Positions 9,131 through 59,362 of a DNA stretch of 64,000 bases are shown here, piece by piece. Origin of the DNA: Paludibacter sp. (GTDB lineage: Bacteria > Bacteroidota > Bacteroidia > Bacteroidales > Paludibacteraceae); assembly GCA_017882285.1 (NCBI GenBank), contig JADGPS010000001.1:1-64000 (forward strand), given 5' to 3'. Position 1 is the first letter of the stretch, and each line of letters begins with the position of its first letter. The notes under the pieces were generated by a model. It ran no database searches. It was not told where the DNA came from and was given only the letters and a program-made list of their open reading frames with translations. The translations under genes were made by a program, and so were the position numbers.

Positions 9131-9637
9131 CTAATAACGATAATCTTTAAGTTGTTCTTGAAGTCTTTTGCGAGCCAGGAAAATGCGGCTCTTAACAGTT
9201 CCGATTGGTAAATTCATGTGTTGTGCAATTTCTTCATATTTAAATCCTTGAATATGCATGGAAAAAGGAATGCGATATTCGTCCGCAAAAGCTGCAATAC
9301 TATTGGAAATTTCACCAATAGCATAAGAACCTTCAGGACTATCGAAACCGGAATTTTGTGGTAAATTTAAATGATGTAAGTCTTCAGTTTTATCAACAAC
9401 GGTTTGATTTCGTACAATTTTACGGTAATTGTTTATGAAGATATTCTTCATAATAGTTAATACCCAACCTTTAAAATTGACATTATCAGTAAATTTCTCC
9501 TGATTATCCAATACTTTAAGCGTAGTGTCTTGCAATAAATCTTCGGCATCGTCACGATTTAATGTCAGTGAAAATGCAAAATTACGCATATTGCTTTGAA
9601 GCGCTACTAATTCATTTTCAAATTGAACGTCTTTCAT
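9131..9637 (-). CDS. ECF-type RNA polymerase sigma factor
   Basis: 168 residues. Region 2 with RDDAEDLLQDTTLKVLDN (about 24-41) and NFKGWVLTIMKNIFINNYRK; region 4 with YEEIAQHMNLPIGTVKSRIFLARKRLQEQL near the C terminus (helix-turn-helix for -35 recognition). No region 3, hence ECF/sigma-24 type. No anti-sigma gene is adjacent, so this is an orphan ECF factor; many Bacteroidetes have one highly conserved stand-alone example. Its regulon cannot be told from this window. Confidence 0.93.
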   Translation of the reverse strand: MKDVQFENELVALQSNMRNFAFSLTLNRDDAEDLLQDTTLKVLDNQEKFTDNVNFKGWVLTIMKNIFINNYRKIVRNQTVVDKTEDLHHLNLPQNSGFDSPEGSYAIGEISNSIAAFADEYRIPFSMHIQGFKYEEIAQHMNLPIGTVKSRIFLARKRLQEQLKDYRY

Positions 9638-9987: not shown

Positions 9988-10110
9988 CTTTTGTCGTGTG
10001 ACAAAACCCGAAAACGATTCAAATTTGACTTTTGTCGTGTGACAATTCGCAAATATGATTCAAAATTGGCTTTTGTCGTGTGTAAACAGAAAAATATAAG
10101 TGTAACTGAA
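9988..10110 (+). repeat. 41-bp direct repeats with palindromic core TTGTC-GTGT-GACAA
   Basis: Three units start at 9988, 10029 and 10070, period 41 bp. Units 1 and 2 share CTTTTGTCGTGTGACAA and a conserved ATTCAAA near the end; unit 3 keeps only CTTTTGTCGTGTG. The core is an inverted repeat (TTTTGTC / GACAAAA in unit 1, 7 bp with a 4-nt loop; TTGTC / GACAA in unit 2). About four helical turns separate the cores, as in arrays of protein binding sites. No function is known to me. Confidence 0.7.
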
Positions 10111-10321: not shown

Positions 10322-11044
10322 ATGAATGACATACCTAGTTTTTTTGGAGATCCAAAAGTAATAATTTCTCTTCTTGCTCTGTTAATTGCGGGTGTCAGCT
10401 TGATTTGGACATTTGCAAATCAATGGGAGCAAAATAGAAAATGGGATAAGCTAAATGAAGGAAATCCTGAGATATTCGAAATTAGACTTCAAAATTGGAA
10501 AGAATTTACGAAAGAGGAAGCTATGACTATTCAATGGGGATATGATCCATTATTGTTTGAAAAAGGGGAGGCTTCGGAGAGATATTTAACCATCAATTGT
10601 CTAGTTATGAGAGATGCAAATACAAATCAAAAGATTCCTAATACAAATCCAGTATATACTATGCCAGAGGCAGAACAAGAGCTTAGGCGAGTTGGCTATT
10701 CAGGGAATGCAAACCTTTATAGACTCTTCAAGCCAAGATTTGCAATTGAAAATATGGGTAAAACGGAAGTTCGAGATTTATCTATTTTCATTGATGCAAA
10801 ACTTCCGAACAAAGAATGGGATAGAGTATTTACTTCAAATGCTAATTTCAACCTTACAGCATCCCAAAGAAGCACTATTACTTTTACAATTGAATATCTA
10901 CTTGCGAACATTTTACCTGAACAAATAAGTTATAAAATTCATTTCAGTTATCTGGATTATAAAAATAGAAACAATGACAAAATTATTGGGGCAAAATGGA
11001 CATCAACTGATAATTCTTGGTCTTATGAAACAATCAATGAATAA
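10322..11044 (+). CDS. orphan protein with N-terminal membrane anchor
   Basis: 240 residues. One hydrophobic segment near the N terminus (about residues 12-30, VIISLLALLIAGVSLIWTF) followed by a mostly polar, beta-rich domain without a signature I recognise; it contains an ENMGKTEVRDLSIFIDAKLPN segment of the sort seen in Ig-like or membrane-tethered sensor domains. No family is assigned. It is alone between two palindromic elements (10258-10300 and 11053-11190), the layout of a gene cassette. Codon use is AT-rich like the surrounding genome. Confidence 0.7.
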   Translation: MNDIPSFFGDPKVIISLLALLIAGVSLIWTFANQWEQNRKWDKLNEGNPEIFEIRLQNWKEFTKEEAMTIQWGYDPLLFEKGEASERYLTINCLVMRDANTNQKIPNTNPVYTMPEAEQELRRVGYSGNANLYRLFKPRFAIENMGKTEVRDLSIFIDAKLPNKEWDRVFTSNANFNLTASQRSTITFTIEYLLANILPEQISYKIHFSYLDYKNRNNDKIIGAKWTSTDNSWSYETINE

Positions 11045-57900: not shown

Positions 57901-57930
57901 CCTACTCTCAAGCTTTTCGGCTTCCGCTCC
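57901..57930 (-). repeat. partial intergenic repeat copy D
   Basis: CCTACTCTCAAGCTTTTCGG and CTTCCGCTCC resemble the left half of copies A-C; the right half (GTGGTTTCTGGACTCCA) is missing. Lies between the DUF6261 and FISUMP genes. Confidence 0.55.
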
Positions 57931-58013
57931 CTACTCTTTTTAGGATTTTCAGGGTTGTTCCTATTTGTATTTTCCCCCACCGCTCATCGCAGCAGGGGAA
58001 AACTTAATTTTTA

Positions 58014-58754
58014 TTATACCACCGATGGCACAACAGGCGGTGTATCTTTCGTTCCCCCTTCGAGCAAATGGGATTTTTTGCGTAGGTCGTCTAATTGGTT
58101 GAAAAGTAAGATAAGATCGTCGGTTGGTGTGAAGTTTACTGCCTGTTCCAGGGCCGTGCAGAACTGAATGTAACTTGCCACGGCTGCAGGTCTTAGCTTT
58201 GTACCCGATACCTTGCTGCGTGCTGCCGTTTCAGTAGTTCGGCTGTTGTAAAGCGCTTTGAACTCAGTATTTTTAGCTTCCAAAGCCGTAAACTGGGCAT
58301 CAATTCCCAATGTCAGGGCAGCTGAGCTAAGCTCACTTTGTGCATGATATTTACCAAAAACTTCAACCAGAATATCCGTTTCGGTATTCCACGGCAGGGA
58401 TAAGGCATCCCAATAAGGAGCAAGAAACAACTGCAATGTACTGGCTGCAGTTTTTTTACCGGCATCGCTGCTTTTCAGGTACGATGTAACGATTCTTCGA
58501 ATTTCTGCAAACAAGGCATCCCGTTCTTTGTCCAACGGTTTCAGATCGGCGGTTAGTCCGCTTTTCTGGTTCTTGTTTATTTCTTTCCCAAATGCAACAT
58601 TGTCGGCTTCAAGTTGATTCAGTGCAGCCACCAATATCGGGCTTAGCTGCGGTTCCACAGCCCGGGCAAGTTCAATACTCGATTTAAAGAGTGAGAACGC
58701 GTTGTTAATAGTCAATTTAGCAACGTACAGAATTGAAAACAAAAAATTTGACAT
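58014..58754 (-). CDS. DUF6261 family protein
   Basis: 246 residues, mostly helical, no signal peptide. Contains the repeated AAxTLQLFLAPYW and SYLKSSDAGKKTAAST segments, LFxEIRRIV and the Pro/Thr-rich C terminus TKDTPPVVPSVV seen in DUF6261 proteins of Bacteroidetes. Function unknown; the alternating hydrophobic pattern suggests a helical bundle. Its upstream region (58834-59079) is a strictly periodic array of palindromes, which may control it. Confidence 0.8.
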   Translation of the reverse strand: MSNFLFSILYVAKLTINNAFSLFKSSIELARAVEPQLSPILVAALNQLEADNVAFGKEINKNQKSGLTADLKPLDKERDALFAEIRRIVTSYLKSSDAGKKTAASTLQLFLAPYWDALSLPWNTETDILVEVFGKYHAQSELSSAALTLGIDAQFTALEAKNTEFKALYNSRTTETAARSKVSGTKLRPAAVASYIQFCTALEQAVNFTPTDDLILLFNQLDDLRKKSHLLEGGTKDTPPVVPSVV

Positions 58755-59362
58755 ACTGATTTTTTTAAAATGATTACTGGAAAATAATTACTCTATTTAG
58801 TTTTTGTAAATAGCATTTTAAAGGTTTCATTTTGCTGAAAATTTCTGTAATCGCGATATTCCCCCATTCAACCTGAAGAAATTTTCTATAGCTCCAATGA
58901 ACGTTCAATCCTCCTGTAGAAAATTTCTATATCCTAAACGGACGTTGATTCATGCCGTAGAAATTTTCTATAACCTAAACGGGCGTTCATTCATGTCGTA
59001 GAAATTTTCTACACCCTGGACGGACGCTAATTCATACCGTAGAAATTTTCTACAGCATGAACGTTAATAAATTATGCATTTTTCATTTTTCAAAGAACAA
59101 TAACGACACAAAGATATAGAAAGATTTCATTTTGTTAATCATCTTTTCTACATTTTTTTAAAGAAATTTTTATAAATACGGAAAGTGTGAATTGGTGCGG
59201 ATTTCAGGGTTAATGTTTTTTATGTATGTACAAGACCTTACAGCCACGAAGATAAAATCATACCCATTACTAACAGCGAAATAAGCCAAAATGCATTATC
59301 CAGCAGCCAAAGTCCCTATGGTTTTTTCTCGTAGAGTTTTGTGGTTAATGTTATTGGGGCAA
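58755..59362. other. intergenic region with 41-bp palindrome array; remainder without features
   Basis: The first part contains the array at 58834-59079. The rest (59080-59362) is AT-rich, crosses the 3' side of the amidase gene on the minus strand, and shows no gene or strong hairpin. Confidence 0.6.
58834..59079 (-). repeat. 41-bp tandem repeat array with GTAGAAA-T-TTTCTAC palindrome
   Basis: Six units start at 58834, 58875, 58916, 58957, 58998 and 59039, every 41 bp exactly. The 15-bp palindrome GTAGAAATTTTCTAC is perfect in unit 5 and in unit 4 (58998) and has one or two changes in the others; unit 1 (58834) is degenerate (12/15). The spacer is also conserved (CCTAAACGGACGTT..ATTCAT). 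The array lies 80-325 bp upstream of the DUF6261 start. It is not a CRISPR: spacers are alike. Confidence 0.85.

Follow-up and report, generated by a model that had tools for sequence, protein, structure and literature searches.

Helically phased arrays of palindromic repeats upstream of DUF6261 genes in Bacteroidota keep their spacing and vary in sequence

Introduction

Iterons and phased operator arrays, as known from the replication and partition systems of plasmids, consist of repeats placed about two helical turns apart, on which an oligomer assembles along one face of the DNA, and such arrays often adjoin the gene under their control. Several other repeat systems of bacteria resemble them in outline. 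In Porphyromonas gingivalis, the minisatellite MITEs known as MITE464/PgRS (41 nt) and BrickBuilt (23 nt) form intergenic tandem direct repeats without spacers (PMC4596501). Type III toxin-antitoxin systems (ToxIN, CptIN, and TenpIN), the layout of which is described in PMC5086642, place several tandem repeats between a promoter and one gene, and in ToxIN examples these repeats measure 34 to 36 nt. REPs are many scattered copies of one short palindrome found together with a tyrosine transposase (REP/RAYT, PMC3733652), and the latter report was the only one returned by a literature search for 41- or 42-bp arrays in Bacteroidetes. DUF6261, the protein family discussed below, was mentioned in the literature searched only on an unrelated subject.

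Here, we describe an array of palindromic 41-bp repeats located in a window of 64,000 nucleotides from Paludibacter sp. (contig JADGPS010000001.1, positions 1 to 64,000), together with its counterparts in related genomes, and compare it with these systems.

Results

The array and its leader position

The DUF6261 (PF19775) gene in question occupies positions 58014 to 58754 of the reverse strand, codes for 246 amino acids (Pfam E 5.5e-25), and belongs to a set of four paralogous genes in this genome. Read in the direction of its 5' leader, it is preceded by a stretch that separates the start codon from the final array unit (58755-58833, -), in which no intrinsic terminator was found, and by an array of six units (58834-59079, -), each carrying a dyad of about 15 bp of the GTAGAAA-T-TTTCTAC type. 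The units begin at 58834, 58875, 58916, 58957, 58998, and 59039, i.e. at steps of exactly 41 bp, as the initial annotation had it, and this periodicity was borne out by sequence identities of 0.71 at lag 41 and 0.66 at lag 82, compared with at most 0.33 at all other lags from 8 to 99 and a maximum of 0.40 across lags 30 to 59 in 2000 shuffles. The core called by TRF extends from 58868 to 59056. Units 2 to 5 share 63 to 88% identity with one another, and the degenerate units, 1 and 6, are 46-63% identical to the others. The palindrome GTAGAAATTTTCTAC is matched exactly at 58998 and 59039 and with one or two mismatches at 58875 to 58957.

A genome search for the exact palindrome revealed no further copy beyond chance, and most other loci described below carry a palindrome of their own; the proposal that GTAGAAATTTTCTAC is the feature common to such arrays was therefore not supported. 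What is conserved is the architecture and not the sequence of the window array, as follows from the lack of further copies beyond chance. No Rfam family matched positions 58834 to 59079, no terminal inverted repeats surround the array, and the inverted repeats detected between 57800 and 59350 were either units of the array or short, weak pairs. On the other side of the gene, between it and the next downstream gene, lies a stretch that scores just below threshold for DUF805b, a cis-regulatory motif of Rfam (57912-57963, -; 34.7 bits versus a gathering score of 35.6).

The array had initially been placed within the promoter region. A Bacteroidetes-type -7 box, TATCTTTG (TAnnTTTG), is found upstream of it (59109-59116, -), with no clear -33 box. 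Among the DUF6261 loci, two-box promoters (TTG-n-TAnnTTTG) no more than 250 bp ahead of the array were present on the gene strand in 28 of 78 loci versus 7 on the opposite strand, these being consensus matches rather than mapped start sites and the strict two-box match occurring in a minority of loci; between the array and the ATG there were two on either strand. Since the predicted promoter lies upstream of the array, the array itself is probably located in the transcribed leader, downstream of the promoter and not within it. Intrinsic terminators between array and gene were called in 4 of 103 loci in the sense direction versus 2 antisense.

The DUF6261 protein

For the protein encoded in the window, PF19775 was the sole Pfam match, NCBIfam gave nothing, and PADLOC nothing convincing. 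Its AlphaFold2 model is all-helical (pLDDT 84.6) and shows no recognizable DNA-binding fold. A fold search with this model yielded no significant match, the hits of middling Z score being generic helical bundles, and the fold may still be a known one. The bodies of DUF6261 proteins are mostly acidic, with a median pI of 5.6. A scan of viral contigs with this single protein revealed no relative that would point to a phage origin; the members of the family are too divergent for an alignment-based scan.

Occurrence at DUF6261 loci

All four DUF6261 genes of the Paludibacter genome are preceded by a 41- or 42-bp array, each of a different sequence. The family was present in 36 of 100 related genomes, one of which had 21 matches. 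Among the 145 DUF6261 loci with enough upstream sequence, TRF called an upstream array in 119, with a period of 41 bp in 67, 42 bp in 49, and 33, 43, and 44 bp in one each. Thus, 116 of the 145 loci, and 116 of the 119 called arrays, have a period of 41 or 42 bp, which corroborates the suggested link between array and gene family. Where TRF called none (26 loci), the identity still peaked at lag 41 or 42 in 8, compared with 15 of 150 random windows. The median array spans 202 bp, or about five units, and ends 93 bp (median) before the ATG. Arrays scoring at least 100 numbered 118 upstream of DUF6261 genes versus 9 in the 600 bp downstream. Carriers include Paludibacter and Mariniphaga, and distant DUF6261 loci in other orders and classes of Bacteroidota show the same period, several of them being without a called array.

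Arrays before other genes

Specificity of such arrays for DUF6261 was not supported. In 1.2 Mb of the complete genome of a relative, G016, which served as background, 24 of the arrays scoring at least 100 have a period of 41 or 42 bp, and several of them precede genes other than DUF6261. Two further families of small proteins with an upstream leader array were distinguished (X and Y; loci L224-L246 / L209-L223, L325-L331), the first comprising proteins of about 207 amino acids with a helical N-terminus and a weakly Fn3-like C-terminus, and the second proteins of about 223 amino acids. No homology was detected among X, Y, and DUF6261, apart from a weak link between X and Y, and a relationship of DUF6261 with either family was discarded. 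Upstream of X genes, 19 of 22 loci had a best period of 21, 42, 63, 84, 105, or 126 bp, and the rest gave 85 bp, 40 bp, or none; upstream of Y genes the best period was a multiple of 21 bp in 12 of 13 loci. Since TRF may report multiples of a base period, we read the base unit of both families as 21 bp, i.e. two helical turns, repeated over roughly 200 bp; distant Y-like genes in another genome (G259) are preceded by 21-bp units, mostly in 8 to 14 copies. Together with the 41- and 42-bp periods of the DUF6261 arrays, these multiples of 21 bp support the earlier proposal that helical phasing is the key feature. By the same logic the DUF6261 unit may consist of two 21-bp half-units that face each other; lag 21 is not raised in DUF6261 arrays.

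Orphan arrays were encountered as well. The window holds a second 41-bp array of the same architecture (9988-10097, no strand assigned; 2.7 copies, dyad TTTTGTC-GTGT-GACAAAA), situated between a gene for an ECF-like sigma factor (9131-9637, -) and an open reading frame of 240 amino acids (10322-11044, +), with no DUF6261 gene or remnant nearby. In G016, locus L169 (401509-401863 and 409134-409404) contains large 41-bp arrays of units resembling the DUF6261 type, with flanks that lack a DUF6261 gene. The idea that orphan arrays mark the sites of DUF6261 remnants was dropped, no such remnants having been found.

Symmetry at the level of DNA

The dyads are more symmetric than the repeat content requires, with a mean score of 5.01 out of 7 versus 4.08 in column-permuted arrays of the same repeat content, and scores of at least 5.5 in 37% of arrays versus 0% after permutation. 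Double changes kept complementarity in 59 of 81 cases in the dyad arms versus 62 of 226 outside them (p=1e-12), a count that is somewhat favored, as each dyad center could shift to its best position. Furthermore, a weak symmetric skeleton, TTY..A / T..RAA, spans most of the unit and reaches about 16 bp to either side of the center, positions at about 13 and 16 bp also being symmetric.

If pairing of the RNA were under selection, G:T mismatches should exceed A:C mismatches on the sense strand; the two were equal (26 and 29). Folding of whole arrays was likewise equal for sense and antisense RNA (p=0.33), and in the window array each of the two strands folds better than shuffles. Because of this parity, and because neither strand folds better, the constraint on the dyads looks like one acting on double-stranded DNA, as had been proposed at the outset, and an array of RNA hairpins was rejected as the main constraint. 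The same data bear on the possibility that the leader is an RNA antitoxin similar to that of type III systems, the repeat transcript binding and neutralizing the downstream protein. The order of promoter, repeats, and gene, the number of repeats (about five), and the position of the predicted promoter upstream of them are as such a system would have them, but the near-absence of terminators between repeats and gene, the lack of a G:U preference or of a folding advantage of the sense strand, the period locked to turns of DNA, and an all-helical product for which Pfam, NCBIfam, and PADLOC gave no convincing match to a known toxin family leave this explanation with only a slim chance.

We think it similarly doubtful that the arrays are neutral minisatellites, i.e. 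functionless products of slippage. Their sequences do vary and become homogenized within a locus, and intergenic minisatellites of 41 and 23 nt exist in P. gingivalis (PMC4596501); nevertheless, these arrays are restricted to positions before a few gene families, as the excess of strong arrays upstream over downstream of DUF6261 genes illustrates, their period and total length are nearly constant, and their dyads are under covariation.

Dyad sequence and the downstream protein

Among DUF6261 loci, dyads as different as TTCCCAATATTGGGAA, TTCGTACTAGTACGAA, and TTGCCCAAGCTGGGCAA were found, and the spacing and the single dyad per unit were kept. Dyads tend to be odd in length in arrays of 41 bp and even in those of 42 bp (28:6 and 9:25, p=7e-6). 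Within a subfamily, related loci have dyads that resemble one another, the window-like AGAAATTTTCT recurring in four loci (L033, L068, L072, and L088), and dyad cores become more alike as protein identity rises. Nevertheless, two loci whose genes share 91% identity, L017 and L041, have CGTAC-type and GGATGA-type units, respectively, and L041 itself contains a single unit of the CGTAC type, after which its units are of the GGATGA type. The paralogs L082 and L083 of one genome (G032) encode proteins that are 97% identical, with six differing residues all located within positions 172 to 192, and differ in their dyad arms. Units of one array can also have different arms that are still symmetric. 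Such differences between close paralogs and between units would not be expected of a dimer with strict sequence specificity.

These observations are pertinent to the idea of cognate binding, according to which the DUF6261 protein binds its own array as an oligomer, as an autoregulator or as one of a pair of gene and array partners, with the dyad core evolving along with the protein. It would account for the fact that arrays are as numerous as DUF6261 paralogs in the Paludibacter genome, for the greater likeness of dyad cores among closer proteins, and for the coincidence of six residue changes with altered arms in L082 and L083. However, when the whole family is considered, these six positions do not covary with the core of the dyad (mean z -0.6 to -0.7, p about 0.95), so that a recognition helix at residues 172 to 192 was discarded for want of family-wide support, and the overall covariation of protein and dyad core is weak, only columns 11, 12, and 152 passing the permutation threshold. 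Nor do paralogs within one genome avoid common cores, as the search for such avoidance revealed. The weak covariation and the lack of core avoidance make direct recognition of the array by DUF6261 possible but unsupported. Given also the acidic protein body, the lack of a recognizable DNA-binding fold in the model, and the presence of the same kind of array before the unrelated X and Y genes, we consider cognate binding unlikely.

Cassettes at the pirin locus

At one chromosomal site, next to a pirin gene, two genomes (G000 and G040) have cassettes of the L007 type, a third (G038) has a member of another subfamily (L069) between similar flanks, and two others (G032 and G022) retain C-terminal DUF6261 remnants (L290 and L292); many of the relatives compared (L287-L306) have no cassette within the sequence examined. 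These varied cassettes, remnants, and empty sites indicate gain and loss of array-gene units and probably also their replacement.

Such turnover would be expected if the dyads were DNA hairpins or recombination sites serving the exchange of array-gene cassettes, their symmetry being maintained by templated palindrome repair. The mixture of unit types in L041 and the compensatory changes without strand bias fit this explanation too. On the other hand, the difference between L007 and L069 could also reflect fast divergence, hairpins would not need a spacing phased to the helical turn, neither a recombinase nor a transposase was a constant neighbor, and in the window the unit is not flanked by a terminal inverted repeat, for which reasons we regard a recombination element as quite unlikely.

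Discussion

The reading that we favor, and to which we give about an even chance, is that of a docking array phased to the helical turn, lying in the leader and controlling the downstream gene. Judging from position, period, and symmetry, the array would be a cis-acting DNA element that is transcribed as part of the leader and lies between the promoter and the start codon. Along its length of about 200 bp, putative protein docking sites would recur at intervals of about 21 bp, or two helical turns. Adjacent half-sites in the leaders of DUF6261 genes would face each other, giving one dyad per four turns (41-42 bp). A DNA-binding protein that forms oligomers would then occupy every unit from the same face of the DNA, and the array is a plausible candidate for cooperative protein binding; the bound oligomer would control transcription of the downstream gene, most simply by blocking or pausing it. 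More tentatively, and in our view possible rather than probable, the arrays might belong to an undescribed module found throughout the phylum, in which a small-protein gene from one of several unrelated families is joined to an array of about 200 bp with docking sites every two turns, selection acts on spacing and dyad symmetry and leaves the sequence free, and the array-gene units are exchanged as cassettes, possibly as a defense or competition locus. An element preserved by geometry and not by sequence is invisible to ordinary sequence searches; such arrays can be found by their period alone, and they group three uncharacterized families of small proteins.

Among published repeats, PgRS and BrickBuilt are the closest, as they are intergenic tandem repeats of Bacteroidales and, in the case of PgRS, 41 nt long. 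In them, however, one and the same sequence is dispersed in copies that have terminal inverted repeats and no associated gene family (PMC4596501), whereas sequences vary between the loci described here, the array in the window occurs once and has neither the many-site repeat sequence nor the terminal inverted repeats of a MITE, and the arrays precede defined gene families. With REPs the array shares short palindromes, and the window copy also starts with GTAG, but dispersed palindromes of one sequence were not found, the window sequence being present at one locus only, and no tyrosine transposase (RAYT) was recognized among the open reading frames neighboring the window array.

Type III toxin-antitoxin systems are similar in having a promoter, several tandem repeats, and one gene, as well as divergent copies, and the upstream promoter has its counterpart here in consensus matches. 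The missing terminator between array and gene argues against such an identity, which was rejected on this ground and for want of a strand bias, no structured repeat RNA being indicated by mismatches or folding. The product also appears unrelated, and the period is locked to the helical turn. With regard to an endoribonuclease of the ToxN, CptN, or TenpN type, the protein gave only PF19775 in Pfam and an all-helical model without a significant fold match. Since the array fails to qualify as a type III, MITE, or REP element, it appears to be a DNA control element of a kind not described before, and the statement of the initial annotation that no named element fits can be upheld within the literature searched.

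Iterons and phased operator arrays share with it the spacing by whole helical turns, which was found both in the DUF6261 arrays and before the X and Y genes. No Rep or Par homolog was found, and in contrast to those elements the arrays described here are chromosomal, accompany mostly solitary genes, and vary in sequence from locus to locus with their spacing kept. If a binder is found, the array may prove to be a new variant of the operator array.
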